Part shown: positions 3,542 through 28,215 of the stretch, piece after piece
Layout: each line of letters opens with the position of its first letter
Position numbering within the stretch: position 1 is the stretch's first letter
From: Algibacter lectus
GTDB lineage: Bacteria; Bacteroidota; Bacteroidia; Flavobacteriales; Flavobacteriaceae
Length of the DNA: 64,000 nucleotides
Direction: 5' to 3'
Assembly: GCF_900112395.1 (NCBI RefSeq)
Contig: NZ_FOLN01000011.1
Span: 1 to 64,000 of the forward strand
Program-made: the position numbers and the translations under genes
The notes under the pieces: model-generated
Told to the model about the DNA's origin: nothing
The model's database searches: none
The model's input: the letters and a program-made list of their open reading frames with translations, nothing else

Positions 3542-3659
3542 ATTTTTTAAATTATTATTTTTCTATAAGTATTAAAAAAGCCTAAGACGTTACACTTATG
3601 CCTCATTATTATTTTTAAATTTTCTAAAAGATTTAACTTTAAATGTGCTGACATAAAAC

Positions 3660-3700
3660 AATAATACCCACCAAGCTATAAAAACCTAGTAGGTATTATT
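3660..3700 (-). terminator. Intrinsic-type terminator of the menC-CPBP-menE operon
   Basis: On the minus strand the RNA folds into an uninterrupted 16-bp stem: AAUAAUACC pairs with GGUAUUAUU, and the inner six to seven pairs include three G-U wobbles. On the plus strand those pairs are A-C mismatches, so the signal is strand-specific. It lies just after the menE stop in the direction of transcription and is followed by a short T-rich stretch (GTTTTATGT), so termination may be imperfect. Confidence 0.6.
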
Positions 3701-3722
3701 AAAATCACACATTATCGAGGTT

Positions 3723-4793
3723 TTAAAAAACAACCTGTTCTAAAGTGTTTTTACGATGAATTTTTCCCGAAGCCGTATTTACAAATTTACTTACCGCGTG
3801 AATAGCTTTTGGTTTTTCGTATTTATCCAAACCATCAAAAATAGATTCGTCTAGCTTATTATCTTTTCCTTCAATAATTAGAATAGCTTTCTCTCCTAAA
3901 GTCTCATCAGGAACAGATGTAATAAAAAATTGTTGAGGTATTTTACACTGTAGCTTCTCTTCTATCACCTCTGGATATAATTTAATACCACCAGAATTAA
4001 TTACGTTATCAAAACGGCCTAACCATTCAAAACTACTATCTGAATGTATTTTTACAATATCATTTGTAACTATAGTTTCATCTAAAAGCTCTGGAGCATT
4101 AATTACTAAACAACTTCTATCGTCGGTAGAAATAGTAATATTTGGTAAGGTTTTAAAGTATTTATCAGACTCCGTATCTGTAAAGTTATTTATCTTCTTA
4201 ATGGCAATATGCGATACCGTTTCCGTCATACCATAAGTTTCGTAAACATTAGGTTTTTTATCCTGAATTAAAGCTTTTATACTTTCAGAAACACGTCCGC
4301 CACCAACAATTACTGTTTTAATTTTATCGAAATATTTAGCGAAGTTTTTAAGTTGCATTGGTGTAAATGCGCAAAATTCGTAATCTTTTTCATAATCGAT
4401 TCTAGGGAAAGCCGCAGGCTCTACCATATCTAATTCTAAACCTAAAACAATAGCACGAACCATCATCATTTTACCTGCAATAAAGTTTGAAGGCAAACAA
4501 TGCAATACTTTTTTACCAGGTCTAAGGTCGAAGAAGTTACCAGTTGCAATGGCAGATTTTACCATAGCTTCCTTTTTAATTATTATCTCCTTGGGCTTAC
4601 CGGTAGATCCCGATGTACGTACTTTTATAAAATCATGCTTATCTAACCAATCGAGTAAAAACTCACCCAATTCGCGCTCGTAAGCAACGCCTTCTTTTAC
4701 AAAACTATACGCAACCTCCATTAAATCTTCATGAGAATAATGGTGATTATTTAATTTAAACCTTACATGTACTTTAGTGTAATCTGGTATCAT
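3723..4793 (-). CDS. menE: o-Succinylbenzoate-CoA ligase (MenE-like AMP-binding protein)
   Basis: Activates o-succinylbenzoate to its CoA thioester in menaquinone synthesis. The adenylate-forming P-loop is TSGSTGKPKE (about residues 60-69), followed by YETYGMTETVSHIA (A5 motif), GRFDNVINSGGIKLYPEVIE (hinge) and the C-terminal catalytic lysine in ASGKIHRKN. At 356 residues it is shorter than the ~450-residue proteobacterial enzymes but normal for the compact Bacteroidota form. It is the last gene of a three-gene unit: the CPBP gene ends 2 nt before its start, and menC is first. A hairpin terminator follows. Assignment rests on the motifs plus the men context. Confidence 0.9.
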   Translation of the reverse strand: MIPDYTKVHVRFKLNNHHYSHEDLMEVAYSFVKEGVAYERELGEFLLDWLDKHDFIKVRTSGSTGKPKEIIIKKEAMVKSAIATGNFFDLRPGKKVLHCLPSNFIAGKMMMVRAIVLGLELDMVEPAAFPRIDYEKDYEFCAFTPMQLKNFAKYFDKIKTVIVGGGRVSESIKALIQDKKPNVYETYGMTETVSHIAIKKINNFTDTESDKYFKTLPNITISTDDRSCLVINAPELLDETIVTNDIVKIHSDSSFEWLGRFDNVINSGGIKLYPEVIEEKLQCKIPQQFFITSVPDETLGEKAILIIEGKDNKLDESIFDGLDKYEKPKAIHAVSKFVNTASGKIHRKNTLEQVVF

Positions 4794-15817: not shown

Positions 15818-15832
15818 ATGTCCTTTTTTTTC

Positions 15833-16049
15833 TGGGCGTTACCCTATCGGGTCAGGCTTTACGCTACAATTCCTCGTTCGTGCCTCTCTGCGGGATTTTC
15901 ACTGCAATCCTTAACGCAGGGCTAAGCACAAAGGTTTGGTCATTACAGTAATCTTCTAGTAGCTTAATTATTACATTTTTTTATGGGTTTTGATTTTGGA
16001 ATTGTATTTTTACTTCTTAATAAGTAAGCCTAGGCCTTAGTTGGCAATA
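15833..16049 (+). repeat. Composite repeat copy 1, ending in an attC-like core
   Basis: The left 86 bp (15833-15918) begin TGGGCGTTACCC and end TTAACGCA, forming a short GCGTTA/TAACGC inverted repeat. They are 84/86 identical to 22001-22086. The right half (from 15956) runs through TACTTCTTAATAAGTA and ends CCTTAGTTGGCAATA (core at 16040). That half recurs at 22125 and 26317. The last ten bases are complementary to 17075-17084, after the first cassette's genes. Confidence 0.75.
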
Positions 16050-16055
16050 ATATAA

Positions 16056-16247
16056 ATGACACTCGAAACTATATACCAAAAAGCAAATGGCGTAATTGGA
16101 ATTGATGGAATGACTGTCAATGAAAGACTTTATGTTTCAGGATTAATTGACATATTTGACCAAGCGAAAAGAGATGATAAGGAATTAGCAAAAACAATTC
16201 TTAAAGCACTAAAGGTTGACCAAAAATCAATCGAAAAAATTATTTGA
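16056..16247 (+). CDS. Hypothetical protein (cassette 1, first gene)
   Basis: 63 residues, predicted all-helical: LETIYQKANGVIGIDGMTVNERLYVSGLIDIFDQA then a charged helix ending in the C-terminal hydrophobic I-I. No known domain. It opens a three-gene cassette: the next gene starts 2 nt after its stop and the third abuts the second. The unit sits between GTTGGCAATA at 16040 and the matching inverse core at 17075. The frame is short but ATG-started and compact with its neighbours, so likely real. Confidence 0.6.
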   Translation: MTLETIYQKANGVIGIDGMTVNERLYVSGLIDIFDQAKRDDKELAKTILKALKVDQKSIEKII

Positions 16248-16249
16248 TA

Positions 16250-16603
16250 ATGAAATATAGCATTACAGATAAAAGAGAATTAAGCAATTCTGAAATTAAA
16301 TTTCTGCCCCATCTGTTTGAAAAAGAAAAATCGGAATGGACTAATTTAATTGGTAACTTGAAAGTAATCGCGAGATGTGGGTGCGGAAAGTGTCCGACCA
16401 TAATATTTGGTAAAACACTCGAATCAGAAATTCAAAAAGGAAAATTAATGATTGATTATGTTGGTAAAGGTGAAAACGGAGAATTGATTGGAATATCTGT
16501 ATTAGGAACTAACCAAATGCCGACTGAATTAGAGTTTTACTCAATAGACGGAGAATCTGACATTACTAAAATACCGAAAATTGACACTCTGAAATCTAAC
16601 TGA
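16250..16603 (+). CDS. Hypothetical cysteine-motif protein (cassette 1, second gene)
   Basis: 117 residues from ATG 16250. An upstream in-frame TTG at 16244 overlaps the previous gene's stop and is less likely. The middle carries a C-x-C-x-x-C motif in VIARCGCGKCPTIIFG (about residues 42-57), a possible metal site. The rest alternates strands and acidic loops. I have no family name for it. It starts 2 nt after gene 1 and ends with TGA directly abutting the ATG of gene 3, so the three are translated as a unit. Confidence 0.65.
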   Translation: MKYSITDKRELSNSEIKFLPHLFEKEKSEWTNLIGNLKVIARCGCGKCPTIIFGKTLESEIQKGKLMIDYVGKGENGELIGISVLGTNQMPTELEFYSIDGESDITKIPKIDTLKSN

Positions 16604-17062
16604 ATGAGAAAATATTTGATTTATTTGAACATACTTACTCTCTTCTTATGTTCTAGCTGTGCGTATGAATCAAAAAACCGTGAAAAACTAATTTCATCTT
16701 TCGAAGATAATTTTGGATTTAAACCACCTGAATCAATTAAAAAAATCAAACTCAAAAATCGAGGATATTTTGATTTTCAAGTTCAGTATCTGTCATTTAC
16801 ATATGACTCAAATGTTTTGGAAAAAATTATTGCACACGACCAACCTCTGAATATTGCCGAAAGTAATAATGCGAAATTTGGAGTTATAATTGAGAATTTG
16901 GAAAAAGACGCGAGTCCACCAAGTTGGTTTGATTTACCTAATAAAAACGTTGACCGAATTTATTATAAGAATGATTTTATAGACCATACATTTAGTGAAT
17001 ATTATTTGTGGATTAATAAAGAAACTGAAATGACTTATTTATATGTTCATTTCTTTGATTAA
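16604..17062 (+). CDS. Hypothetical lipoprotein (cassette 1, third gene)
   Basis: 152 residues. N-terminal hydrophobic stretch and lipobox L-C-S-S-C (Cys near residue 19) mark it as a membrane-anchored lipoprotein. A second half with SPPSWFDLPNKNVDRIYYKNDF and a C-terminal YLWINKETEMTYLYVHFFD strand. No known domain. Its ATG follows the stop of gene 2 without any gap. Confidence 0.65.
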   Translation: MRKYLIYLNILTLFLCSSCAYESKNREKLISSFEDNFGFKPPESIKKIKLKNRGYFDFQVQYLSFTYDSNVLEKIIAHDQPLNIAESNNAKFGVIIENLEKDASPPSWFDLPNKNVDRIYYKNDFIDHTFSEYYLWINKETEMTYLYVHFFD

Positions 17063-17074
17063 AAATAAAAATAC

Positions 17075-17273
17075 TATTGCCAACACGGTATAAAAAACAT
17101 AGGGCATTCGTGCTAAACCAAAAGGTCTGTGAATATTAATAAAGTCCGATAAATATAAAATTTGGCATTTATAGGAGAAAAGATAAAAGCAAAATATTTA
17201 TATTTAGCTAAGTAATAAACCGAAAAAAAAGTGCTTATCACCAGCCCTACGTTTCTTATACTTAACGTTGTAA
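17075..17273 (+). repeat. attC-like element 1 (family 1, ~200 bp)
   Basis: Inverse core TATTGCCAAC (17075-17084) is the reverse complement of GTTGGCAATA at 16040. After a 3-nt spacer comes GTATAAAAAACATAGGGC (17088-17105), pairing with GCCCTACGTTTCTTATAC (17244-17261) with two mismatches, both G-T on the bottom strand. A 5-nt spacer TTAAC then precedes the next core GTTGTAA (17267). Closely similar to 27993-28191. Confidence 0.75.
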
Positions 17274-17285
17274 AAACATTTAAAA

Positions 17286-17801
17286 ATGCACAAATTCATA
17301 ACATATCTTTTAATTTCATTTATATCCTTGAGTGTGTTTTCTCAAGATAAATATTTCAAATTACCACAAGCTAAAACCCAAAAACCCACCTACATTTTTA
17401 ATAAAACAATAATTGGAAGCGAATTATTAATGAAACGTTTGGGATCTTCTAAAGAAGAGATTCTAAAAAAGGTTAATAAAATATCAGTTATAAAAGATAA
17501 ACAAAGTAGAGGATTTAGCGACTATTATAATCTTACAGGGCAAGGTGTTTTATTTGTGGATTTAAAAGAAAAACCTATAAGCAAATCTCAATCTGAACTA
17601 AATGATTTTTTCGGACTGAATAAACAAAATGAAATCTATATTGACGGTTATTTATTAGAAAGTAAAAAATATCGAATATCACTAATTGGAGTTACGGAGA
17701 TTGAAATTGTAGAGCCAGATAACATAAACGGACTTAAAAGCCAAGTACTGAATATATGGACTTTAGCAAAAAGCGAAAGATATATGGAAAACACAAACTA
17801 A
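17286..17801 (+). CDS. Hypothetical secreted protein (cassette 2)
   Basis: 171 residues with a signal peptide (residues 1-19, ...SVFSQ). The middle segment GQGVLFVDLKEKP and EIYIDGYLLESKKYRISLIGVTEIEIVEPD loosely resembles the plug-type fold of TonB-receptor N-termini, but length and context do not support a receptor. No firm family. It begins 13 nt after core GTTGTAA (17267), but no matching TTACAAC follows the gene, so its own element looks degraded. Confidence 0.6.
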   Translation: MHKFITYLLISFISLSVFSQDKYFKLPQAKTQKPTYIFNKTIIGSELLMKRLGSSKEEILKKVNKISVIKDKQSRGFSDYYNLTGQGVLFVDLKEKPISKSQSELNDFFGLNKQNEIYIDGYLLESKKYRISLIGVTEIEIVEPDNINGLKSQVLNIWTLAKSERYMENTN

Positions 17802-17813
17802 CCGATATTTTTT

Positions 17814-17895
17814 TTTGGCTAAGTGCTTAATTAGAAATTTACTATTTTAGTGTAAACTCTAACCTTTTACTTGTGTAACCATGTCTCTTAACGAA
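17814..17895 (+). repeat. Degenerate attC-like remnant (right half)
   Basis: TTTTGGCTAAGTGCTTAATTAGAAA resembles the interior of element 27155-27353 (TTTTAGCTAAGTGCTTAATC). It continues to TAACC and CTTAACGAAC. No matching left stem or inverse core is found, so this is a partial copy. Confidence 0.4.
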
Positions 17896-17923
17896 CATTT
17901 TAAAAAATCGAATTACGAATAAA

Positions 17924-18529
17924 ATGAGTGATAATTATATAACTATTTGTACAGTAAAAGAAGTTGAAAACCCAAAAGAATTGAGTGAAAAAATTCTAAA
18001 ATGGTTACAATCAAATGAAACAATAGAAACTGAATTATCTTACTGCATTTTTAGTATGAGTAACAAAGGTTATAAACCAGGAAACAAACATATAGATGTA
18101 ATTGGCTCTAACGAAAATATATTAAGACTCAAAGTATGCGGAGTTGAAATAAAAACGGAACGAGAAGTATTTAACGCAGGTGCCTTTACTGCAATGACTA
18201 AATTAGAATGCCCAAATTGTATTACCGACAGATTTGAAGGAATAACACCTCAAGATTTTTTCACAGACAATTGTACCGAGGAACAATTAAATAGATTTGA
18301 TACTGTTTTTCCAGAATTTGACAAATGGACAAATAATGAAAATGCATCTTTAATCTGTCCACATTGTTTAAAAGAAAGCAATTTAATAAATTATAAAACG
18401 GACAATTCAATAGCGTTTTCAAATTTTGGATTTACTTTTTGGAACTGGCCAGATTTAAAAGAAGAATTTCTAATGGAATTAAAAGCTAAAATTGGAACAG
18501 ATATAGTTAGAATGAATGGACACATCTAA
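17924..18529 (+). CDS. Hypothetical zinc-ribbon-like protein (cassette 3)
   Basis: 201 residues. Two C-x-x-C pairs, LECPNC (C96, C99) and LICPHC (C145, C148), form a likely zinc ribbon, with an acidic insert between them. The N-terminal ~90 residues start with a helix and a strand run. The tail ends with WNWPDLKEEFLMELKAKIG. I recognise no named family. Its flanking elements are degraded. Confidence 0.65.
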   Translation: MSDNYITICTVKEVENPKELSEKILKWLQSNETIETELSYCIFSMSNKGYKPGNKHIDVIGSNENILRLKVCGVEIKTEREVFNAGAFTAMTKLECPNCITDRFEGITPQDFFTDNCTEEQLNRFDTVFPEFDKWTNNENASLICPHCLKESNLINYKTDNSIAFSNFGFTFWNWPDLKEEFLMELKAKIGTDIVRMNGHI

Positions 18530-18539
18530 AAAATGCACT

Positions 18540-18661
18540 ACAGCTCCCTATAAAAACAATTACTATTTTAAATCTAACCAAAGATAGTTGCCCTTTTGAT
18601 ACGTCTAATTTTCCTGCGAAAAATTCTAGCATGCAAACACAAAACTATACTTACACGGCGC
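18540..18661 (+). repeat. Degenerate attC-like element (family 2)
   Basis: Shares interior blocks with the well-preserved element 23889-24022: TATAAAAACAATT, ACGTCTAATTTTCCTGCGA and AAAATTCTAG. The outer cores are not recognisable (18540 TACAGC, 18658 GGCGC). This appears to be an eroded site. Confidence 0.5.
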
Positions 18662-18696
18662 TATTATAACAGTTAAAAGCAACAGATAAAGAAAGA

Positions 18697-18951
18697 ATGG
18701 AAGAATTATTCAATCAAGCTAAAGAATTTATGTCACAGAATCCACATTATGGATATTTAGTTGGTTCAATAGTTCTTTTTATCTTTTCCGTTGGGAATTT
18801 TAAAAAATGGAATTGGGCAGTTTCGCCTTCAGGATATAGCCAACGTTGGTGGTATAACTTTTTAGGAGAAAAATATTTTAGCACAATTATGGGAATACTA
18901 TTTTCGATTGGTGCAATAGCTTGTTTTTTGGGTTTCTATTTATCAAATTAA
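18697..18951 (+). CDS. Imm17-like immunity membrane protein
   Basis: 84 residues, two predicted membrane segments: YLVGSIVLFIFSVGNF (about 20-35) and IMGILFSIGAIACFLGFYL (about 64-82), with the loop WAVSPSGYSQRWWYNFLGEKY between. The pattern of N-terminal NPHYGYLVG, the W-x-(V)-(S)-P-S-G loop and the second helix matches the Immunity-protein-17 family of polymorphic toxin systems. No partner toxin is adjacent, as expected for a cassette-borne orphan immunity gene. Recognition is by eye. Confidence 0.6.
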   Translation: MEELFNQAKEFMSQNPHYGYLVGSIVLFIFSVGNFKKWNWAVSPSGYSQRWWYNFLGEKYFSTIMGILFSIGAIACFLGFYLSN

Positions 18952-19076
18952 TAACTATACTATGGAAAGTGTAAATATTTTTAAGGTAGAGAAATTACTC
19001 CAACCCCGTTGTTTTTTAGCTGATAATGAAAACTTAAAAAAGACAATCCCTACAATCAATTTGCCTTTTCGAGAGC

Positions 19077-19102
19077 GATAACTGATAACTGATAACTGAT
19101 AA
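19077..19102. repeat. Short tandem repeat, 7-mer GATAACT x3.7
   Basis: GATAACT occurs three times in a row plus GATAA in the intergenic stretch between the Imm17-like gene and the serine hydrolase. Replication slippage is likely to vary its copy number. The rest of the 18952-19193 gap shows nothing else recognisable. Confidence 0.8.
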
Positions 19103-19193
19103 AATATTAATTTAAATTTTCAATAAAACCACTTTATCATAATTGGATTGGCGTTGAAAAAAAGATGGAAAATTATATCTTAAACAGATAATT

Positions 19194-20285
19194 ATGAAAA
19201 ACATTAAACTTGAAATTTTAAGTATTTTAATTTTATGCATCACAGTAAGTTGTTCGGAAAACACAATCGAAGGTTTTGAATTTGGAGAAAATTTTGACCG
19301 AAATAAAATGGATACTTTCTTTTTAGCACTTGAAGAGCAAAATCTTGGAATGGGAAGTGTGGCCATATTTAAAAACGGACAATTAGATTATCAAAAATCA
19401 TTTGGAGAAGCAGATATTGAAAATAGCATTTCAGCAACACCGCAAACCAAATATAGAACTGCATCAATAACAAAGACGTTTACAGCATCTATGATTATGC
19501 AATTAATTGAGGAAAACAAACTCACACTATCAACAACACTTGATACTTATTTTCCAGAGTTACCCAATTCAAACTTAATAACAATAGAACATTTATTGAG
19601 GCATAAAAGTGGTCTTTTCAATTACACAGATACCGCATACGGTACTGATATTGTAACCCAACCAGCAACACAGCAACAACTAATTGACTTATTTATAGAG
19701 AATGGAACTGTATTTCAACCAAATGAACAAACGCTTTACTCCAATACAAACTATGTTGTTTTAGGCTTTATTATTGAAAGCATAGACCAAAAACCTTATT
19801 CAGATGCTTTGAGAGACCGAATAGTAATACCATTGGGTTTAACGAACACCTATAATGGAGAAGCAATAGATACAACTGATAAAGAGGCATTATCCTATAA
19901 TCCCGAATCTAATGATTGGATATTAGCAACTGAAACAAATACAACTCTTGTGAATGGAACGGGTTCTATAGTTTCAAACCCTGAAGATTTAAATACTTTT
20001 TTTCAAGAACTTTTCGATGGCAATGTAGTTTCAGCAATCTCATTGGAACAAATGCAAGCAAACAGTACAGACATTTATGGATTAGGCTTAATAGCTATTC
20101 CCTTTTATCAAAAAATGGGTTTTGGCGGCACAGGCCTTTTAGACGGTTTTCAATCTATTTCTATTCATTTCCCTAATGATAATGTTAGTATCTCTATCAC
20201 TTTAAATGGAGTTTCTATGTCAAGAAACGATATTGTAATTGGAGCTTTAAGTATATATTCTGGGTTAGAATACACTTTACCATAA
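19194..20285 (+). CDS. Beta-lactamase-class-C-like serine hydrolase, lipoprotein
   Basis: 363 residues, lipobox V-S-C (C20). The penicillin-binding catalytic motifs are complete: S-I-T-K (S91, K94) and Y-S-N (Y182, N184), with GFGGTGLLDGFQSISIHFPND giving the third box region. This is the class-C beta-lactamase/DD-peptidase fold that includes esterases and peptidases; the enzyme need not confer drug resistance. Its anchoring lipid puts it in the periplasm or on the surface. It is cassette cargo with weak borders. Confidence 0.85.
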   Translation: MKNIKLEILSILILCITVSCSENTIEGFEFGENFDRNKMDTFFLALEEQNLGMGSVAIFKNGQLDYQKSFGEADIENSISATPQTKYRTASITKTFTASMIMQLIEENKLTLSTTLDTYFPELPNSNLITIEHLLRHKSGLFNYTDTAYGTDIVTQPATQQQLIDLFIENGTVFQPNEQTLYSNTNYVVLGFIIESIDQKPYSDALRDRIVIPLGLTNTYNGEAIDTTDKEALSYNPESNDWILATETNTTLVNGTGSIVSNPEDLNTFFQELFDGNVVSAISLEQMQANSTDIYGLGLIAIPFYQKMGFGGTGLLDGFQSISIHFPNDNVSISITLNGVSMSRNDIVIGALSIYSGLEYTLP

Positions 20286-20517
20286 AATTGAAGCTTAAAA
20301 AGAGAATTAATAGATTTAAAACAACAAGAAAATACAAAACAGATTGTTGACTTTTAAGGTAAAAATCTTGATTTAAAATCTAAAATACATAGCCCGAATT
20401 TTAATCAAAAAAGGAAGGGTAAAAAAGTTTGAAAATAATTACTATTTTGGCTTCATCAAAGGCCGTTGTATTTTTTGTTATACATAGACCTTACTCAACA
20501 TTAGTAAAGAACCAAGC

Positions 20518-21825
20518 ATGAAAAAAATAGTTTTAGTCTTATTACTTGTCTTCATTTTTAGTTGTTCTAACGAGAGCAAAACAGATAAAGAATTACTAGA
20601 AAACGACAAAAAAGAATTAGTAGAAAACCTAGATTCTTATAAAGTTGCTACTTACAAATTTGGTAAAATACTCATTAGAGCTTCCGCAGAAAAAAACACC
20701 ATATCGCCAGAATTTCAATCTTTTAAATCTGACCTGGATAGAATATTCAACAAGGTCGTAAAATACGATTTAGATAACCCGGAAAGCCTTTCTATGCTCG
20801 ATTACATTTCTATTTATCGTGATTATAAAAACATGGAAGATTTTATAATGGAAACCGACGAAGATATTTTTCCAACATTAATAGACGCCTTCAATTTGGC
20901 TTATGGAGATTCTATTAGCAAACAAAGAGAATATCTAAAAGGAGAAGATAAAGTATATGTTCAAAATATAGAACACTCCGTTTTAAGCGCCATTGTAATT
21001 TTAAGTAAAGATTTAGGTAAAGAAGTATCGCTCTATGAGTGCACAAAAACATACCCAGAATTACTACCAGATTCTGAGATAAAAACACTGTTACAGTATT
21101 TTAGAGGATTTTTATTTTTTGAAAAAGGGCTTTATTATTTATCCGAAGATGAAATTTCTAGAAACATAGACTGGTTAAACCACAACGAAAAAATCGACTT
21201 GCCATATACAAGAGCGCTATTTCAATGGGGAAACCTCAATAACGAGCAAACCCATATAGGAATTCATTCTTTAAATCATTTATTTAGAGGGTTTGATAGA
21301 TTAATGATGGAAAGGGAAATTGATGAAAAACGTGCCATGGAAGATTTTGAAATGTTTTTAAAAGACACCAAGAAAATTGGTTTAGACAATGAAATTGTAT
21401 GGTCTGTTGAAAGCTATTTATATCTAAAAAATGAAGATAATGAAAAAGCAATTGCAGCCTTAACCAAACTAAAAACAAGCAAATTACTTTCCTCTGGAGA
21501 CAAAGAAAGAATAGACGAGTCTATAGAGTATGTAAAGAACCGAAAGCCCGGAAAAGTACTCAATGGCGTTTACGACAAGTACTTTTTAAGTAAAATAGCT
21601 ACAAAATATATGTTTTCAATTTTAGCACAAGTAGATTGGAAAAAAGTAATGAAAGAACAAAATGTGCCTCATACCGACGAAATTTTTAAAACCATCGATA
21701 ACCTAAAAGTCTTTTTAGAAAACATGGAGAAATACTCTAGCACAGAAAACCTAAAGCAAACTGGAGACGAGATTAAAAATACAGGAAAAAACCTTTGGAA
21801 CAAAGCAAAAGCGTTAGCCGAATAA
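20518..21825 (+). CDS. Hypothetical helical-repeat lipoprotein
   Basis: 435 residues. Lipobox F-S-C (C16). The mature part is very charged and helical, with repeated segments (VENLDSYKVATYKFGK..., EIVWSVESYLYLKNEDNEKAIAALTKLK..., KERIDESIEYVKNRKPGKV) reminiscent of tetratricopeptide-like helices, but no motif is clear. The tail carries NLKQTGDEIKNTGKNLWNKAKALAE. No function can be given. Its own left border is vague; composite repeat copy 2 follows the gene. Confidence 0.65.
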   Translation: MKKIVLVLLLVFIFSCSNESKTDKELLENDKKELVENLDSYKVATYKFGKILIRASAEKNTISPEFQSFKSDLDRIFNKVVKYDLDNPESLSMLDYISIYRDYKNMEDFIMETDEDIFPTLIDAFNLAYGDSISKQREYLKGEDKVYVQNIEHSVLSAIVILSKDLGKEVSLYECTKTYPELLPDSEIKTLLQYFRGFLFFEKGLYYLSEDEISRNIDWLNHNEKIDLPYTRALFQWGNLNNEQTHIGIHSLNHLFRGFDRLMMEREIDEKRAMEDFEMFLKDTKKIGLDNEIVWSVESYLYLKNEDNEKAIAALTKLKTSKLLSSGDKERIDESIEYVKNRKPGKVLNGVYDKYFLSKIATKYMFSILAQVDWKKVMKEQNVPHTDEIFKTIDNLKVFLENMEKYSSTENLKQTGDEIKNTGKNLWNKAKALAE

Positions 21826-22000
21826 AAATAACCTTGGCCAAATACCATCTCTAAATAATTGTTTGGCCCTGCCCTATTCACCAAAATTCTCACACGTTTT
21901 CTATATGGTTTTTGTTTGGTCACTTTAACCTTTGAACACGTAATATACATACATCAAGATTAAAGAACCAAATTAATAACATATTCCTAATTTCGCTTTT
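21826..22000. other. Intergenic region before composite repeat copy 2, no gene
   Basis: 175 nt of AT-rich sequence after the helical lipoprotein gene. It contains a short run CACGTAATATACATAC that looks like a broken stem but no matching partner. No ORF, RNA or promoter is recognised. Confidence 0.5.
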
Positions 22001-22219
22001 TGGGCGTTACCCTATCGGGTCAGGCTTTACGTTACAATTCCTCGTTCGTACCTCTCTGCGGGATTTTCACTGCAATCCTTAACGCATGGGCACAAAACCA
22101 ATGTTTAGTTTACACAGCAACCTGCTAGTAGCTTAATTATTACATTTTATTCATGGGGTTTCCCTTTGGAATTGTATTTTTACTTCTTAATAAGTAAGCT
22201 TATACCTTAGTTGTAACAC
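22001..22219 (+). repeat. Composite repeat copy 2, ending in attC-like core
   Basis: The left 86 bp repeat 15833-15918 at 84/86 identity. The right half (from 22125) repeats CTAGTAGCTTAATTATTACA, GGAATTGTATTTTTACTTC and TTAATAAGTAAGC, then ends ATACCTTAGTTGTAACAC (core at 22210-22219). Those ten bases are complementary to GTGTTACAAC at 23053-23062, after the next gene. Confidence 0.78.
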
Positions 22220-22235
22220 ATTAAAAACAAAACTG

Positions 22236-23051
22236 ATGAAAAATAATATTATCTACATATTACTTATAATTCTAACTGTTAGTTGTAAGAATCAAGCAAT
22301 TGTTTATGACGACCCAATTCCAAAACACGACAGCTTAAAAATAAATTCAAAATTCACTAATGAAGAACGAGTAATAAATATTTGGACACCACCAAACTAT
22401 GATGGTTCTACAGATAGTTTGACCGTCCTATATATGCCTGATGGTGGAATAAAAGAAGATTTTCCGCATATTGCAAATACTTTGGATACACTAATTAAAC
22501 AAAATAAAATACCTAATCTTATATTAGTAGGTATTGAAAATACAGAAAGAAGAAGAGATTTATCTGGTCCATCAAACATTGAATACGATTTAAAGTTTAT
22601 TCCAAATCCAGGAGGAGCTGATAATTTTAGAAAATTCATAACAAATGAATTATTTCCAGAGATTAATAAAAGATATAGGACAACAGATAAAAAGGCAATT
22701 TTAGGCGAGTCCTTAGCTGGCTTATTCGTAATTGAAACATTAATTTTAGAACCAAATATGTTTGATTACTATATTGCTATGGATCCTTCCTTGTGGTTTA
22801 ACGAAAACTATTTAGTAACAAATTTTCAAAAGTTAACCGAAGAAAATAATTATGAAAATAAAAGTCTTTGGTATGCTGGGTCAAGCGTAACTGATATATC
22901 CACTTATACAAATAAATTAGAACAAATATTAAAAGATACTAAAGGTGGATTAATATGGAAATATGAAGATGAACCTGAGGAAAAACATAATACAATATTT
23001 AGAGCTACAAAAGAAAAAGCGTTGATTTGGACATTTAGCGAAAAAAAATAA
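22236..23051 (+). CDS. Esterase-like alpha/beta hydrolase, lipoprotein (cassette)
   Basis: 271 residues. Lipobox V-S-C (C17). Esterase-D/Fes-like fold: YMPDGGIKEDFPH near the oxyanion hole, nucleophile elbow G-E-S-L-A-G (S159), and histidine in PEEKHNTIF (H251). The acid is unclear. The gene sits 17 nt after core GTTGTAACAC and is followed at once by GTGTTACAAC, so this is the clearest single-gene cassette of the array. Confidence 0.85.
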   Translation: MKNNIIYILLIILTVSCKNQAIVYDDPIPKHDSLKINSKFTNEERVINIWTPPNYDGSTDSLTVLYMPDGGIKEDFPHIANTLDTLIKQNKIPNLILVGIENTERRRDLSGPSNIEYDLKFIPNPGGADNFRKFITNELFPEINKRYRTTDKKAILGESLAGLFVIETLILEPNMFDYYIAMDPSLWFNENYLVTNFQKLTEENNYENKSLWYAGSSVTDISTYTNKLEQILKDTKGGLIWKYEDEPEEKHNTIFRATKEKALIWTFSEKK

Positions 23052-23052
23052 C

Positions 23053-23188
23053 GTGTTACAACAATGTATATAAAAAACAGGCTAGATAGCATTAAAATCA
23101 AGGGGTTCGGCTTGTATCAAGCTTTGTGTTTAACGGAATTTTTTGTGCTTCGTAATCGCCTACTTTTCATATACTAACCGTTGTAAGC
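23053..23188 (+). repeat. attC-like element 2 (~136 bp)
   Basis: Inverse core GTGTTACAAC (reverse complement of 22210-22219), spacer AAT, left stem GTATATAAAAAACAGGC (23066-23082), right stem GCCTACTTTTCATATAC (23158-23174), then TAACC and core GTTGTAAGC (23180). The 17-bp stem has three mismatches on the top strand; all three are G-T wobbles on the bottom strand. Confidence 0.8.
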
Positions 23189-23204
23189 GATTTGAGAAAA
23201 ACCT

Positions 23205-23882
23205 ATGAAAACACAAAAAGCATTAGATAAATTAATGAAATCTGACAAAGACCATAAAGTAATTTCTGCATTTGCAGGAGTAATCTATGAAAACTCTCTG
23301 AATATGCAGATTAATGTTATCGGAGCAATGCACACTTCTAAATGGTTAAAAAATAGAATAAAGCCTTTTTGGACAGAATATAATCACGGAACTAGTGAAT
23401 GGATAGAAAAGTGTCTTAATAGGGCAATAGATTTTGATTCAGATGATTATGCTGTTTCTGCACTTTTGAATTGTAAAATTCATTCAGTTATTTTGAGTTT
23501 AAAAAAAATGAAAATGATTTTTATATCTTCTCGCTATTATGAAGATTTTAAAAATGGAAAAGTAAATGTTTTAACATTTGCTAAAAGTATTGATAAACAT
23601 TCAAGTAAAGTTTTACCGAAGGTTGTCGAGTTTGGTTGGATCGATGGAACTGATGAGATTATAGATGTTTCTGTAATGCGAGCAATGGTTTTTAACACTA
23701 AATATGAATTAAAAAACAAACAAGTTTACGGGAAAAACTACTCAACTAATTTTCGAAGAGCAACATTACCTTATGGAAATTGGAATCTAGAAAATTCAGA
23801 AGGATTTGAATTAAGAGAAGAATGGAATATTTTTAATGAACTTAACTCTGAAATCAAGAGTGAGTTAATATTAATTGAATAA
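23205..23882 (+). CDS. Hypothetical protein (cassette)
   Basis: 225 residues, soluble, no signal peptide. Rich in charged alpha/beta segments (FWTEYNHGTSEWIEKCLNRA; NKQVYGKNYSTNFRRATLPYGNW; ELREEWNIFNELNSEI). I recognise no domain. The gene begins 17 nt after core GTTGTAAGC and ends before GCTTACAAC, a perfect 9-nt complement, so the cassette limits are clear. Confidence 0.65.
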   Translation: MKTQKALDKLMKSDKDHKVISAFAGVIYENSLNMQINVIGAMHTSKWLKNRIKPFWTEYNHGTSEWIEKCLNRAIDFDSDDYAVSALLNCKIHSVILSLKKMKMIFISSRYYEDFKNGKVNVLTFAKSIDKHSSKVLPKVVEFGWIDGTDEIIDVSVMRAMVFNTKYELKNKQVYGKNYSTNFRRATLPYGNWNLENSEGFELREEWNIFNELNSEIKSELILIE

Positions 23883-23888
23883 AAAACG

Positions 23889-24022
23889 GCTTACAACAAA
23901 GTATAAAAACAATTGCGATTTAGTACTTAATCAAAGGTCGTTACGTGTTTGTAACGTCTGATTTTCCTTCGAAAAATCCTCGGATAAAAACACGTAACTA
24001 TTATTATACATGAACGTTGTGC
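23889..24022 (+). repeat. attC-like element 3 (family 2, ~134 bp)
   Basis: Inverse core GCTTACAAC (23889-23897) pairs with GTTGTAAGC at 23180. Spacer AAA, left stem GTATAAAAACAATTGCG (23901-23917), right stem CGTAACTATTATTATAC (23993-24009), spacer ATGAAC, core GTTGTGC (24016). Four of 17 stem pairs are mismatched; two of these are G-T on the bottom strand. Confidence 0.75.
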
Positions 24023-24044
24023 TAGATCATAAAAACCTACACTA

Positions 24045-24794
24045 ATGAAAGAAATTTCGATTTTAGACTGTGAAAATTACGAATCTATGCTATCATCTTT
24101 AGCTTCGATTTTCACTACTTCTGGAAATGATATTTTATCTTTTTTAAAGTCAACCGATTTAAACGAAATATGGAAAAAAAGCCTAAAAGAAAAATACGCT
24201 AACGAATACTTATTTGATGAGTTTCTTAATGAATTTAAAATTAATGAATCTAAAATAATCAAAGCTTACTGGTTTCATAATACCAGAGTTTTGAAAGGTT
24301 CTGAATTTAAGGAGGGAATTTTACCACTATCAATAGCAATAAATAAAATAGAAACTCTTATAAATGAGATTATAAAAAAAATACAAATTCCAATAAATAA
24401 TAATTCTTTGTTAGGATGTTCTGTAATTCAAAATAAATTAAATTCTAAAACAAATCAAGGTCCTTGGGCTTTTTTAATACGTGATTTTGCTTTTGAAAAA
24501 GCGGATGGAATACACGACTATTTGAAAAGCCCTGAATTAATTGAAGATATTATATATTTTAAATATCCCGAAAAATATGATTTAATATTCCGTGAATTTC
24601 AAAATACAACAGTTAAATGTATAATTAAATTTAAAACAGAAAAAGAATTTCATCCACAAAGACTGTTATACGTTATAAATTATCTCTATAATAAAATAAA
24701 TGATAAAAAAATGGATTGGAGGTCTAATGCAAACTTTAGTAACAATGGCAAAATTATAAGTCCAGAAATGATTTTAAAAATTGACTACTTATAA
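24045..24794 (+). CDS. Hypothetical protein with an H-x-T-R motif (cassette)
   Basis: 249 residues, soluble. Residues 74-96 read AYWFHNTRVLKGSEFKEGILPL; the H-x-T-R followed by a downstream G-I-L-P-L loosely recalls the DarT/ART-type start of NAD-using folds, but the match is too short to call. The C-terminal part is basic-acidic alternation (ERLLYVINYLYNKIN-like helix). Core GTTGTGC precedes and GCACAAC (24805) follows; together they define the cassette end. Confidence 0.55.
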   Translation: MKEISILDCENYESMLSSLASIFTTSGNDILSFLKSTDLNEIWKKSLKEKYANEYLFDEFLNEFKINESKIIKAYWFHNTRVLKGSEFKEGILPLSIAINKIETLINEIIKKIQIPINNNSLLGCSVIQNKLNSKTNQGPWAFLIRDFAFEKADGIHDYLKSPELIEDIIYFKYPEKYDLIFREFQNTTVKCIIKFKTEKEFHPQRLLYVINYLYNKINDKKMDWRSNANFSNNGKIISPEMILKIDYL

Positions 24795-24804
24795 AAATAA
24801 CGAG

Positions 24805-24825
24805 GCACAACATTGTAAATAATTT
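24805..24825 (+). repeat. Truncated attC-like element: inverse core only
   Basis: GCACAAC (24805-24811) is the reverse complement of GTTGTGC at 24016. It is followed by GTAAATAATTTAC and then by AT-rich DNA with no right stem or core before the SMI1-like gene, so the element appears cut. Confidence 0.45.
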
Positions 24826-24872
24826 ACAAAAACGTCAAAACAAATTGAATAAAACAAAAAAATGAAACGAAA

Positions 24873-25259
24873 ATGCCATTTCCAGTAGAAGAAAAATATA
24901 TTATCGAAACAGAATCGGAATTGAGTGTGAAATTTCCATTCGAATTTAAAAACCGAATGATAAAATCAAATGGTGGAGAAATAGATTCAGGTGAATTTTT
25001 CTTCCAACTTCACCCATTTTTTGATAAATCTGACAAAAAAAGAATAAGTCGGACTTGTAATCATATTGGTCTTGAAACAAAAAACGCAAGAGAATGGCAA
25101 GGCTTTCCCAAAAATGGAATTGTAATTGGTAATGGCGGTTCTGGAGATTTAATATTTTTACAACATAATGGAAATGGAATTTTAACTGATGAAATTTATT
25201 TATGGGATCATGGAGAAATTGAAAAAATAGCGGAATCGATTAATAAACTTGATGAATAA
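24873..25259 (+). CDS. SMI1/KNR4-family immunity-like protein
   Basis: 128 residues. The typical N-terminus IIETESELSVKFPFEFKNRMIKSNGGEI and the later NGIVIGNGGSGDLIFLQHNG, IYLWDHG are SMI1/KNR4 (SUKH) motifs. Such small stand-alone proteins commonly neutralise nuclease or other polymorphic toxins; no toxin gene lies beside it here. Located behind a truncated attC-like element, so it may have been captured by fusion of two cassettes. Confidence 0.8.
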   Translation: MPFPVEEKYIIETESELSVKFPFEFKNRMIKSNGGEIDSGEFFFQLHPFFDKSDKKRISRTCNHIGLETKNAREWQGFPKNGIVIGNGGSGDLIFLQHNGNGILTDEIYLWDHGEIEKIAESINKLDE

Positions 25260-25280
25260 CACAATAACACATTCACCTCC

Positions 25281-26252
25281 ATGAAAGCAGAAAAAATAGG
25301 CTTCCTTATTCTTAAATATGGCATTTACAGCATTTTAGTAGGCTTAATTTTAATGAAACTCTTTGGCAATTCTTTTGAAGAAATGATTCATAACTACAAG
25401 GCTAAAAGAGAAATGGAAATGATTCATTACGGAGGCCCCGTTTCTGAAGTAAATAAGCATATTACAGCAAGAAATAATAAAGTTGAAGAACTCAATAATT
25501 TAACAAGTAACCTAGCAAACAAGATAAACACAATTCTATACTATACAAACGACACAACAACAATACACTCTGCGTTAATACAGGCGAATAGAAAATATAG
25601 TAGTAATTACACCAATCCTTACCAAATTGGTAGAAACCATATTGCAGAATCTAATAAAATCATTAAATATATAAATGAATTCGAAGAAAAGATAGATAGT
25701 TTAGGGTTCAATATTTTTATTAACAGAGGAAAAGGAAATGAATTTCTTACTAATGTTTTTCAAAACAAATTAGGTAGTGAAATACGCATTAAAAACGTTA
25801 ATGAACAAGATAGTGTAAACAAATATAAAGTTATAGAACTTCATTATTATCCAGATAGAACAAAACAGCGTTTAATAGAGCGAATAAAAGAAAGAGAGGT
25901 ATCATGGTTTGCTGCAGTTGGATCTACGCCTGAAAAAGAAATAGCATTATTGGATGAAATACAATATTCTATTGCCATTTTTACAGAAAAAGAACTTCAA
26001 GAACAAAAACTAGAATTTCAAGGAATTAAATCACTTTTAGCTCCAAGACTAAACCTACCTAAAAACAGTACATTCTACTTTAGTTGTTACAATAAAAAAC
26101 TAGACAGCCTTACCTTTGTAAAAAAAACAGAACTTTTTGAAACTATGTTCTTAAAAAAACAACATAATATAAAAGGTGAAATTAGATCTGTTAAGGTAAT
26201 ATTAAATCAAAATAAAGACTCAATATCAACTATAGATAATGATGGGCTATAG
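25281..26252 (+). CDS. Hypothetical single-pass membrane protein
   Basis: 323 residues. One membrane helix (about residues 8-27, FLILKYGIYSILVGLILMK), then an extracytoplasmic or cytoplasmic charged domain with long helices and a strand-rich C-terminal part (NSTFYFSCYNKKLDSLTFVKKTELFETMF). No domain recognised. It follows the SMI1-like gene by 21 nt, so the two are possibly co-transcribed. Composite repeat copy 3 begins right after it. Confidence 0.6.
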   Translation: MKAEKIGFLILKYGIYSILVGLILMKLFGNSFEEMIHNYKAKREMEMIHYGGPVSEVNKHITARNNKVEELNNLTSNLANKINTILYYTNDTTTIHSALIQANRKYSSNYTNPYQIGRNHIAESNKIIKYINEFEEKIDSLGFNIFINRGKGNEFLTNVFQNKLGSEIRIKNVNEQDSVNKYKVIELHYYPDRTKQRLIERIKEREVSWFAAVGSTPEKEIALLDEIQYSIAIFTEKELQEQKLEFQGIKSLLAPRLNLPKNSTFYFSCYNKKLDSLTFVKKTELFETMFLKKQHNIKGEIRSVKVILNQNKDSISTIDNDGL

Positions 26253-26257
26253 TTAAC

Positions 26258-26411
26258 AAGGCTTTTCATTACACCTCCTGGCTCGTATCTCTCTGCGAGA
26301 TTTTTATTTTAGCATCGTAGTAGCCTAATTATTACAAAATTCTTTATGAGTTCCGCTTTCGAAATTGTATTTTTACTTCTTATTAAGTACGCATATACCG
26401 TAGTTACCAGT
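26258..26411 (+). repeat. Composite repeat copy 3 (degenerate), ending in attC-like core
   Basis: The left part is eroded (ACACCTCCTGGCTCGTATCTCTCTGCGAGATTTT resembles the other copies). From 26317 the right half is well kept: TAGCCTAATTATTACA, GAAATTGTATTTTTACTTC, TATTAAGTACGCATATACCG. It ends TAGTTACCAGT (core 26403-26411), which is complementary to ACTGGTAC at 27155 except for one missing base. Confidence 0.65.
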
Positions 26412-26425
26412 AATACAAGAACACT

Positions 26426-27148
26426 ATGAACAAGAATAAAATATTTTATATAGTTATATTTATTCTCTTAACTTCTTTCATTTATCTCTTTATTAACTTT
26501 GAGTTAAAAATTTGGATTTTTTGGGGAATTGTACCTTTAGTTATATGGATTATAAATAAAGATGTTATTACTGGTAATAAATGGTTTCCTAAAAAAGAAT
26601 CGATGAAAAGTTCTAATTCTCTTAAAACTCAAAAAACTTTAGAGCAAATAATTACTGAATTACCTAAACTAAAGCAAATTGAAAAAGAAGGCTATATTGA
26701 GTTATCAGAATTATGTTGTTCAAAAGAGGTTCAAAAAAAAGTAATTCCTTTTCTTGAGGACTTAAAAGATTTTTCAAACGAAGAAGAGTATTTAACTACA
26801 TTAAATTTTGTAATGGAATATTTAGATAACAATAATATCTTTTTTATTATGTCTCTTGATTGGAAACAAGATGTGGAAACATTAAAGTGGAGAATAGAAA
26901 ATTCATTACAGAACAATTTCAATCTCTTTGTTGAATTACCTGATTTAAATAATTATTCGGACAGAACATCTGTCTCTTTTGATAATATATTTGAAGATTT
27001 TGACAAACCTTTAAGAAAAAAAGGAAAGCAAATAGGGTTTATTGATACTAAGAGTGATGAATATGTTATCATAATTCATGAAATTATTGATAGAGAAAAA
27101 ATTATTGAGACAGTTAGTAAAATCGGATATAACTATTTTGACAAATAA
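26426..27148 (+). CDS. DUF6630-like membrane-anchored protein (cassette)
   Basis: 240 residues. Two N-terminal membrane segments (residues ~6-26 and ~29-42), then a soluble domain with IMSLDWKQDVETLKWRIE, LFVELPDLNNYSDRTSVSFDNIFEDFDKPLRK and a C-terminal GFIDTKSDEYVIIIHEI. The LDWKxD, SVSFDNIF and GFIDTxSDEYV pattern is what I associate with the DUF6630 family, function unknown. It starts 15 nt after core GTTACCAGT and is followed by the element at 27155. Confidence 0.6.
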   Translation: MNKNKIFYIVIFILLTSFIYLFINFELKIWIFWGIVPLVIWIINKDVITGNKWFPKKESMKSSNSLKTQKTLEQIITELPKLKQIEKEGYIELSELCCSKEVQKKVIPFLEDLKDFSNEEEYLTTLNFVMEYLDNNNIFFIMSLDWKQDVETLKWRIENSLQNNFNLFVELPDLNNYSDRTSVSFDNIFEDFDKPLRKKGKQIGFIDTKSDEYVIIIHEIIDREKIIETVSKIGYNYFDK

Positions 27149-27154
27149 AGAACT

Positions 27155-27353
27155 ACTGGTACAATGGCTATAATTAATACGGGTTTTGGTGCTTAACCCA
27201 AAGTTTAGAGCTTTTAAGCAAGTCCGCCAAATCAAAAAGATTTGGCTTCATAAAGAAAAAGATAAAACAAAATAAAAAGTTTTAGCTAAGTGCTTAATCG
27301 AAAGTTCAGTACTTTTAATTCCCGTACTAACCATAGCCGAGACGTTGGCAGTA
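27155..27353 (+). repeat. attC-like element 4 (~199 bp)
   Basis: Inverse core ACTGGTAC, spacer AAT, left stem GGCTATAATTAATACGGG (27166-27183), right stem CCCGTACTAACCATAGCC (27321-27338), spacer GAGAC, core GTTGGCAGTA (27344-27353). The 18-bp stem has three top-strand mismatches and all three are G-T on the bottom strand. The interior shares TTTTAGCTAAGTGCTTAATC with element 17814-17895. Confidence 0.75.
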
Positions 27354-27364
27354 ATTAGAAAAAA

Positions 27365-27991
27365 ATGACAAACATAGGAGATTTAAGTGCAGATGGTTAT
27401 GGGATAATGATATTTTCACCAGACGTTTTTTGTGATTATTTAAAATTAAAGAAATGTCGGGCAAAGAAATACATATCATATTTTGACAAAAATAAAGAGT
27501 TCTTTCATCAAACAATCAAAGACGGAAAAATTCTTCCAATATACCAATTAGCATCATTTGAGTATGAACTATTTGTTTCTGTAAATGAAAGTGAAATGAA
27601 TATTCCAAAAGATTATTTAAAAGTGTATGAATACAATGGATTCTATATCGAAGTTGGAAAAGAAAATAAATTGTGTTTTTCAAGTTTTGATTTTATGGAA
27701 TATGAATCAAGTCTAATAAAGCAAAACATAACTGAAAAAAGTGATTTAACTCCAAGTGGACCTGAAGGAATTCTAGAGAAGTATAATACATCTCTTGGTT
27801 TAGAAATTGAAGAAGGAATATACTCCTTAGATATTATTGGACTTAAAAGAAAAAATGAATTAGAAAGAGAAAGTAAAAATTTTGGTTATTTAATGCGTTT
27901 AACATTAGGTGAAAATATAGAAAATGACAATTTTCTGAAAGCTGATAATGATAATTGCACATTTGATATATTACAGTATGAAAAGCAATAA
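27365..27991 (+). CDS. Hypothetical protein (cassette)
   Basis: 208 residues, soluble. An alpha/beta mix with KKCRAKKYISYFDKNKEFFHQTIKDGKILPIYQL early and IYSLDIIGLKRKN late. No named domain recognised. It begins 12 nt after core GTTGGCAGTA and is followed, 1 nt after its stop, by TACTGCCAAC (10-nt complement). This is among the best delimited cassettes. Immunity or enzyme roles are only guesses. Confidence 0.65.
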   Translation: MTNIGDLSADGYGIMIFSPDVFCDYLKLKKCRAKKYISYFDKNKEFFHQTIKDGKILPIYQLASFEYELFVSVNESEMNIPKDYLKVYEYNGFYIEVGKENKLCFSSFDFMEYESSLIKQNITEKSDLTPSGPEGILEKYNTSLGLEIEEGIYSLDIIGLKRKNELERESKNFGYLMRLTLGENIENDNFLKADNDNCTFDILQYEKQ

Positions 27992-27992
27992 C

Positions 27993-28191
27993 TACTGCCA
28001 ACAAGGTATAAAAAACATAGGGCGTTTGTGATAAACCGAAAGGTCTGTACATATTAATGAAGTCCGCTAAATATAAAATTTGGCGTTTATAGTAGAAAAT
28101 ATAAAAGCAAAATATTTATATTTAGCTAAGTAATAAACCGAAGCGGAAGTGCTTATCACCTGCCCTACGTTTCTTGCACGAGACGTCACAA
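27993..28191 (+). repeat. attC-like element 5 (family 1, ~200 bp)
   Basis: Inverse core TACTGCCAAC pairs with GTTGGCAGTA at 27344. Spacer AAG, left stem GTATAAAAAACATAGGGC (28006-28023), right stem GCCCTACGTTTCTTGCAC (28162-28179), spacer GAGAC, then GTCACAA (core GTT changed to GTC). Highly similar along its whole length to element 1 at 17075-17273, about 10.9 kb away. Confidence 0.75.
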
Positions 28192-28215
28192 ACAATTTAA
28201 CCCAAGTTATACCCA

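Follow-up and report, generated by a model that had tools for sequence, protein, structure and literature searches.

An integrase-less cassette array in Algibacter lectus, probably served in trans by a XerA-like recombinase

We analysed 64,000 nucleotides (nt) of Algibacter lectus DNA (assembly GCF_900112395.1, contig NZ_FOLN01000011.1, positions 1 to 64,000; hereafter the window), in which inverted-repeat elements are interleaved with plus-strand genes from 15.8 to 28.2 kb, between an OmpA-like and a YciO-like gene. Judged from sequence comparisons, this array is very probably the integrase-less part of an integron-type cassette system, similar to a cluster of attC sites lacking an integrase (CALIN), and would most likely be served in trans by a XerA-like tyrosine recombinase encoded on another contig of the same genome (C13). 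The layout is that of an integron, while the enzyme and the marks of the hairpins differ from those of described integrons. PMC9668308 defines a CALIN by the lack of an integrase and by two or more attC sites spaced by less than 4 kb. The pairs B3/B4 and B6/B7, called as attC by our covariance model R1, are spaced in this way with no integrase nearby; unlike a CALIN, the array is built of sites of a new class and has three attI-like head sites, at one of which a near relative carries a different cassette. No recombinase was found within the 64-kb window. An earlier sequence-only reading, which had proposed a cassette array with no integrase in view, was right in this respect for the window but not for the genome, where a 375-residue recombinase with its own array lies on C13.

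Each element follows the plan nnnAAC-spacer-GTATA (or like)...TATAC-spacer-GTTnnn, and we refer to its AAC end as R'' and to its GTT end as R'. Five elements are well formed (B1, B3, B4, B6, B7) and others degraded (B2 and the half-site B5), which bears out the earlier inventory together with the R1 matches; that inventory had not separated a second type, A1, A2 and A3, which also ends in GTT and stands at the head of each sub-array. The stretch from 17.8 to 22.0 kb is mostly decayed. The earlier count of 15 plus-strand genes was about right: 14 plus-strand open reading frames (ORFs) of at least 70 amino acids (aa) start between 16244 and 27365, and two more up to 29188. The features of the array are as follows.

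15829..16042, plus strand: A1, attI-like head site; core GTT at 16040-16042; R' GTTGGCAATA matches the R'' of B1 at 10/10 positions
16041..17267, plus strand: cassette 1, from G|TT to G|TT; genes 16244-16603 and 16604-17062
17075..17275, plus strand: B1, attC-like, long class; 188 nt from AAC to GTT; E-value 2.5e-9; 88% copy at B7
17286..17801, plus strand: cassette-like gene 3' of B1; its own attC appears degraded, with no R'' partner for the R' of B1
about 18549..18655, plus strand: B2, degraded attC-like element; E-value 1.3e-8; 72% to B4
18697..18951, plus strand: Imm17-family immunity-like protein (PF15562, 8.6e-6)
21997..22212, plus strand: A2, second attI-like head site; core GTT at 22210-22212; 88% to A1; R' matches the R'' of B3 at 10/10 positions
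22211..23180, plus strand: cassette with an esterase-like gene (22236-23051), from a profile match and R'/R'' boundaries
23054..23188, plus strand: B3, attC-like, from the R'/R'' match and the covariance model
23181..24016, plus strand: mobile cassette with a 225-aa gene (23205-23882); in the relative G150 it lies directly 3' of A1, 96.5% identical, with the junction exactly at G|TT
23889..24024, plus strand: B4, attC-like, from the R'/R'' match and the covariance model
24017..24811, plus strand: cassette with a 249-aa gene (24045-24794), running to the AAC of half-site B5
24804..24836, plus strand: B5, 5' half of an attC-like element whose 3' half is gone; R'' GCACAAC matches the R' of B4 at 7/7 positions
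24873..25259, plus strand: SUKH (SMI1/KNR4) immunity-like protein (PF09346, 8.4e-13)
about 26252..26405, plus strand: A3, third attI-like head site, more decayed; core GTT at 26403-26405; R' GTTACCAGTA against TACTGGTAcAAT of B6
26404..27344, plus strand: cassette with a DUF6630 gene (26426-27148), from a profile match and R'/R'' boundaries
27154..27352, plus strand: B6, attC-like, long class; covariance model E-value 9.6e-10
27345..28185, plus strand: cassette with a 208-aa gene (27365-27991), from R'/R'' boundaries
27994..28193, plus strand: B7, last attC-like site, long class; core mutated to GTC; R'' TACTGCCAAC matches the R' of B6 at 10/10 positions; E-value 6.5e-5

Model R1 was built from 53 bottom-strand sites, of which B3 and B4 are the only members from the window. 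It recovers the untrained window sites B6, B1, B2 and B7 at the E-values given above. An Rfam scan of the window at gathering score gave no matches.

The bases that follow GTT vary between elements and are the reverse complement of those that precede AAC in the next element. Adjacent elements match at 10/10 positions for A1-B1, A2-B3 and B6-B7, at 9/9 for B3-B4 and at 7/7 for B4-B5, while A3-B6, with its 8 matching nt and then a slip of one base at the core, scores 0 in the pairwise matrix. Similar starts shared by some cassettes also raise the score of several non-adjacent pairs (A1-B7 9/10, B6-B1 9/10, B1-B3 8/10); in all five matrix rows that were scored, the top match is the neighbour. For the R' of B1, no R'' partner was found, nor was a partner found for B7. 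Such complementarity between neighbours is the trace that cassettes cut at G|TT would leave: each would carry the first bases of its own site, which would be whole only in the circle. The 3' core of B1, for instance, is a property of the next cassette. Around the first 21 recombinase loci described below, a match of at least 4 nt joins 71 of 104 neighbouring pairs, against 9 of 133 pairs of own ends and 6.5% of random pairs. The sequence-only reading had correctly described the core as conserved only as GTT; the bases after it are not conserved because they belong to the next cassette. The classical attC core consensus is GTTRRRY, and here the bases following GTT (itself imposed by the search) are G/A, T/G and C/A/G, with variation.

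Relatives differ at these same boundaries. The interval between the OmpA-like and YciO-like genes measures ~13.4 kb in the window, 10.0 kb in G150, 3.6 kb in G149 and 1.3 kb in G151. It is nearly empty in G152 and G017 (~0.1 to 0.2 kb) and, by coordinates, in several further genera, and in G019 (8.3 kb) and G006 (2.9 kb) it holds other genes and no A match. In the relative G150, A1 (98% identical) is followed by the window's 23181-24016 cassette (96.5%), the two being joined exactly at GTT. The G150 junction reads ...ACCTTAGTT|GTAAGCG and the window's B3 junction before the 225-aa cassette ...CTAACCGTT|GTAAGCG; A1 and B3 have no other common sequence at this breakpoint. The sequence-only reading had staked its cassette interpretation on strains differing at the GTT boundaries and on element ends moving with their genes, and both were observed. 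Own genome and G150 differ exactly there, and in four high-identity shared stretches the start of the cassette travels with its gene, once across families. G056 and Algoriphagus ornithinivorans, which belongs to another family, share a 629-nt cassette stretch (97.3% identity) that starts exactly at TT; a whole 359-nt cassette is present in two arrays of G056 (91.4%); and a 605-nt stretch shared by G061 and G109 (90.7%) starts at TT. Furthermore, one attI orthologue is followed in three species by three different first cassettes, each starting at GTT. Together with the R'/R'' linkage, these differences support the cassette-array reading.

The same observations bear on a different account, in which static gene clusters with repeats akin to miniature inverted-repeat transposable elements or repetitive extragenic palindromes are changed by homologous recombination, the recombinase being an unrelated Xer or phage enzyme. 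The elements are indeed repeated, contigs often end near recombinases or sites, and another dispersed repeat unrelated to cassettes occurs in the same genome. However, the G150 breakpoint lies at GTT between two elements otherwise without common sequence there, and neighbour-specific complementarity is unexpected of repeats. Sites also lie mainly downstream of the recombinase, on its strand, and their counts track it (with the kinship caveat given below), and XerC/XerD-like genes exist separately in the genome. We consider this the least probable of the accounts weighed here.

The dispersed repeat overlaps the A elements. We tried the latter as single units and rejected this, as a 90-bp half of them is a dispersed repeat with 15 other copies that are not followed by motif-found attC sites. 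This ~90-bp repeat (GGGCGTTACC...TAACGC) has window copies at 15829-15921 and 21997-22089 and 15 further intergenic BLAST matches in the genome (L018, L020-L033), none of them cassette-linked; L019, among the same loci, is the window's own A3. For this reason, only the 3' half of A is treated as attI-like. Beyond the genus, this half gave only short low-score matches (25 of 199 genomes, with own genome alone convincing), and the term attI-like is therefore given on architecture and on the G150 junction. The G150 array (L219, reversed, ~3480-4780) also carries an insertion, IS3-type-like by eye, at the end of an attC-like site.

A search for Phage_integrase gave 11 matches in the genome. One of them, located by the genome-wide search for a tyrosine recombinase that the sequence-only reading had advised and of a kind different from IntI, is the 375-aa recombinase at the end of C13. 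Immediately downstream lies an attI-like site; an R'/R''-linked series of two genes, of 272 and 184 aa, each with an attC 3' of it, extends from there to a further element and the contig end. By the last C13 cassette (L054:12600-12800), an element with terminal inverted repeats was recognised by eye (GGCAGTTAAAA...TTTTAACTGCC), perhaps a small mobile element.

In the mechanism that we propose, cassettes, mostly of one gene and one attC-like site, would be cut at G|TT and joined to an attI-like head site (A1, A2 and A3 here) or to another attC. The joining would be carried out by the C13 recombinase, which owns an attI-like site and cassettes and would reach the A sites of the window in trans, from a distance. 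Its substrate would be the folded single bottom strand of the cassette attC, and the choice of strand may be marked by conserved G·T wobbles, not by extrahelical bases.

The order seen on C13 recurs in other genomes. Loci were chosen as regions around the best below-cut-off TIGR02249 matches in 149 genomes of the window's family, with long contigs favoured. The site finder required GTT plus a GTATA-type motif, and the chain walk started at the best of several GTTs near the recombinase stop (-60 to +200/220). At the first 40 loci, the walks gave at least one complete linked cassette in 30 and at least two in 22, with maxima of 18, 19 and 20; at 20 further phylum-wide loci the corresponding numbers were 10 and 9. 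Where a chain was present (40 loci), the attI-like GTT lies 26-135 bp past the recombinase stop and its R' matches the first attC. As a control, walks were started in own-genome DNA largely free of arrays: no link came from 4435 of 4522 starts, one link from 85 and two links from 2. A minus-strand walk is unsuited to this purpose, as inverted repeats that are linked can be read from either strand.

In 80 named loci found by profile, 54 motif sites lie downstream on the same strand (in 409 kb), 5 upstream (in 603 kb) and 11 on the other strand. The first 21 loci have 133 sites downstream and 17 on the other strand; their 133-vs-1 downstream/upstream count is unbalanced, as they hold 297 kb downstream vs 42 kb upstream, and the 80-locus count is used instead. 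R'/R''-linked pairs occur in 8 of the 80 loci, many of which have little downstream DNA: those of Winogradskyella ursingii, Flavobacteriaceae S0862, Seonamhaeicola aphaedonensis, Rufibacter, Zunongwangia mangrovi and two uncultured lineages, and that of Algibacter onchidii, where 9/9 pairs are linked. Among these 80 loci, no linked pairs were found outside Bacteroidota. The longest ORF of the cassette lies on the plus strand in 175 of 197 cassettes and on the minus strand in 6, and 16 have none. Two recombinases of the array-associated group, at separate locations, are present in each of four genomes (G056, G100, G149, G151), and several of these enzymes have an array of their own.

Chromosomal integrons such as the Vibrio superintegron share this order, with the attI-like site just downstream of the integrase, as well as long one-direction arrays of mostly one-gene cassettes, a GTT core common to neighbours and a bottom-strand-favoured attC hairpin with an asymmetric unpaired spacer. 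An attI-like site beside the recombinase and cassettes bounded at G|TT, with each attC divided between neighbours, are present here as in IntI-type integrons. Unlike in chromosomal integrons, the enzyme is XerA-like and without the IntI insert, the strongest attI-like sites are palindromes, and the attC sites carry conserved G·T wobbles and mostly no extra L''-arm base.

In a search of solved structures, the best match to the recombinase was archaeal XerA (4a8e, 1.6e-42), aligned in one piece, whereas IntI4 aligns in two pieces, with its residues 183-233 facing ~10 residues. Two catalytic motifs lie 66-71 apart in 36 of 39 recombinases associated with arrays (32, 81 and 81 in the others) and 109 apart in 10/10 canonical IntI of the same phylum; a second pattern gives 66-71 in 38 of the 39 (129 in one), the exceptions not having been checked by hand. 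The array-associated recombinase thus lacks the IntI-specific insert (I2, around patch III). Three array-associated proteins were scanned: all fall below the TIGR02249 and NF011946 cut-offs, and all pass that of NF040815 (XerA, 'site-specific tyrosine recombinase/integron integrase') with 234.0, 220.6 and 229.8 bits against 220, NF040815 being the best NCBIfam match (234 bits). Unlike XerA, array-associated members adjoin attC arrays, and many are ~370-400 aa long, with an extra N-terminal stretch of ~80-100 aa. The predicted structure comprises a XerA/IntI-like core plus an N-terminal domain of unplaced kin; residues 1-80 of the Winogradskyella ursingii protein (L080) gave a confident ββαββα-type model with weak likeness to XPB N-terminal and HARP.

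In the tree, IntI is a clade of its own; the 39 array-associated rows are all contained in two further clades of 27 rows each. Nine of the 10 IntI rows come from one family, and the node joining IntI to archaeal and other Xer-like rows has a modest 83/97; what the tree shows is confined to the separation of IntI from the array-associated enzymes. Chromosome dimer resolution at dif is an unlikely role for the array recombinase, because XerC/XerD-like genes are present separately in its genome.

These comparisons also speak to the possibility that the window is a classical CALIN, left by a canonical IntI with the usual attC and now decaying. The window does show the classical plan (R''-L''...L'-R' layout, GTT core and bottom-strand hairpin), and canonical IntI occurs in other lineages of the phylum, passing the cut-off in 105 of 395 genomes. 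Against this, no protein passes the TIGR02249 cut-off in the 149 genomes of the window's family, own genome included; the array-adjacent recombinases lack the insert by either spacing pattern and are not nested with IntI in the tree; and extra L''-arm bases are found in only 46 of 262 sites. We regard this origin as highly improbable. We draw no prevalence from the TIGR02249 matches at 1e-20 seen in 137 of the 149 family genomes, as ordinary Xer proteins are among them. Bacteroidota are named among the integron-bearing phyla in PMC8618304 and PMC9668308, and Salinibacter ruber M1, of the same wider phylum, has a complete Bacteroidetes integron according to IntegronFinder 2.0 (PMC9024848); for Flavobacteriaceae, we found no such system reported in that survey. 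The canonical enzyme of the phylum has the insert, unlike the array recombinase described here. In six genomes of the phylum outside the window's class (G262, G396, G444, G454, G463, G505), a canonical IntI coexists with a match to the insert-less family.

The attC sites were compared across 39 loci. The bottom strand folds more stably in 237 of 262 sites. Mismatches in the top-strand stem are A·C or C·A in 488 cases and G·T or T·G in 17, which means that the bottom strand turns the former into wobbles. In 53 aligned bottom strands, 96% of the cells of a 20-pair stem are paired and double-change cells number 166 (48 in shuffles); at three stem positions the pair is G·T in most or all sequences (53, 42 and 52 of the 53). 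An attC hairpin with a preferred bottom strand, as in IntI-type integrons, is thus indicated by folding and covariation. The unpaired spacer is asymmetric, mostly 1-3 nt on the R'' side and 4-5 nt on the R' side. The classical extrahelical base sits on the L'' arm (PMC2727003). In IntI-type integrons, the first of these bases is a conserved G, and they determine which strand is used. Here, an unpaired L''-arm base is present in 46 sites, while 216 of 262 have none in the first 20 stem columns, so that most sites lack this mark of IntI-type integrons, and an unpaired base on the L' arm is commoner. The sites measure 115-134 nt in 201 of 262 cases and 180-194 nt in 39, and B1, B6 and B7 belong to the long class.

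This strand preference has to be weighed against an integron-like system in which the attC substrate is double-stranded or cruciform and handled in the manner of a Xer/dif pair. Such a mechanism would suit an enzyme whose nearest kin is XerA, a Xer protein (by both 4a8e and NF040815), and which is without the I2 helix that PMC7790495 ties to single-strand use; attI-like sites are also often palindromic, 19 of 40 lying above the 95th percentile. Yet a duplex mechanism offers no clear reason for the bottom-strand bias in hairpins and wobble direction or for the asymmetry of the unpaired spacer. We therefore consider it unlikely and favour the folded bottom strand as the substrate.

According to PMC7790495, integrases are held to have acquired single-strand recombination with the I2 helix, but deletion of this helix abolishes the function of IntI1, so that direct proof of this role is lacking. 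In the part of the tyrosine recombinase classification of PMC8138268 that treats the integron-like subgroup, the insert is 'not fully conserved', and relatives of the array-associated enzymes may already be inside that classification. On balance, we lean towards the view that Bacteroidota, above all Flavobacteriaceae, run a second integron lineage, with an I2-less XerA-like enzyme, bottom-strand attC hairpins, fixed G·T wobbles and perhaps the help of an N-terminal domain. If so, single-strand cassette recombination arose twice, or I2 was not its origin; an insert-less enzyme beside hairpin sites makes the I2 question directly testable. We found no earlier description of such flavobacterial integrons in the open-licence literature, preprints being outside the scope of this search, although one may exist elsewhere.

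The covariance search of the whole genome, also advised by the sequence-only reading, gave 33 R1 sites at an E-value of 1e-3 or better and 38 at 0.05. Many attC matches of own genome lie near contig ends or on short contigs (C11, C22, C25, C31, C32). Cassette arrays may break assemblies and hence be under-counted. In a sample of 40 genomes, 30 had attC matches, from 1 to at least 82 each. Of these searches, 31 genomes were covered for both recombinase (E-value 1e-80 or better) and attC: the 19 with a recombinase have 1 to at least 82 attC matches, at least 9 in 18 of them, and the 12 without have 0-6 (Mann-Whitney p 2.6e-6, which is overstated given the kinship of the groups). Across the family line, one genome on each side agrees with this contrast: G158, outside the family and with the recombinase, has 9 sites, and G004, inside it and without the recombinase, has none. 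A strong profile match to the array-associated recombinase was found in 106 of 395 sampled genomes of the phylum, with a linked array in only 10 of the 20 sampled loci.

Several observations weigh against the proposed reading. The window array is not adjacent to the recombinase, and G150, whose array differs, carries a different recombinase (42% identity); trans action would therefore not be tied to one enzyme. Single links may arise by chance, one or more having come from 87 of 4522 control starts, and they are weak because the walk picks the best of several GTTs. Ten of the first 40 loci have no complete chain (nine have a motif-found downstream attC, and one has 206 bp of DNA). Of the ten misses among the 20 further loci, two have less than 250 bp downstream and four have no site at all, so a profile match does not always denote an array enzyme. 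Kinship confounds the comparison of site counts, since the window's family supplies 18 of the 19 genomes with the recombinase and 1 of the 12 without, and the model was trained on that family. The attC sequences are mutually related, so that the strand and covariation tests are not independent. The inverted repeats of A1 and A2 only equal the 95th percentile of random GTTs, that of A3 is lower, and only the 19 attI-like sites mentioned above exceed this percentile. Finally, five more distant shared stretches (76-82%) start inside cassettes and are silent on the boundary.

The cargo of the window comprises Imm17, SUKH, a beta-lactamase-fold lipoprotein, an esterase, DUF6630, a lipocalin-like protein and unknowns. 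For 70 of the 163 cassette proteins from other loci, the families among the matches listed include FRG, Schlafen AlbA_2, HNH, AAA_21, SLATT_5 and GmrSD_N, each with one or two members. PADLOC matches in these cassettes, again among those listed, were to PDC-S15, AriA, GajA and an endonuclease effector of the type found in cyclic oligonucleotide-based antiphage signalling systems (CBASS). With its immunity-like and defence-like genes, this cargo may be a large unseen gene pool.

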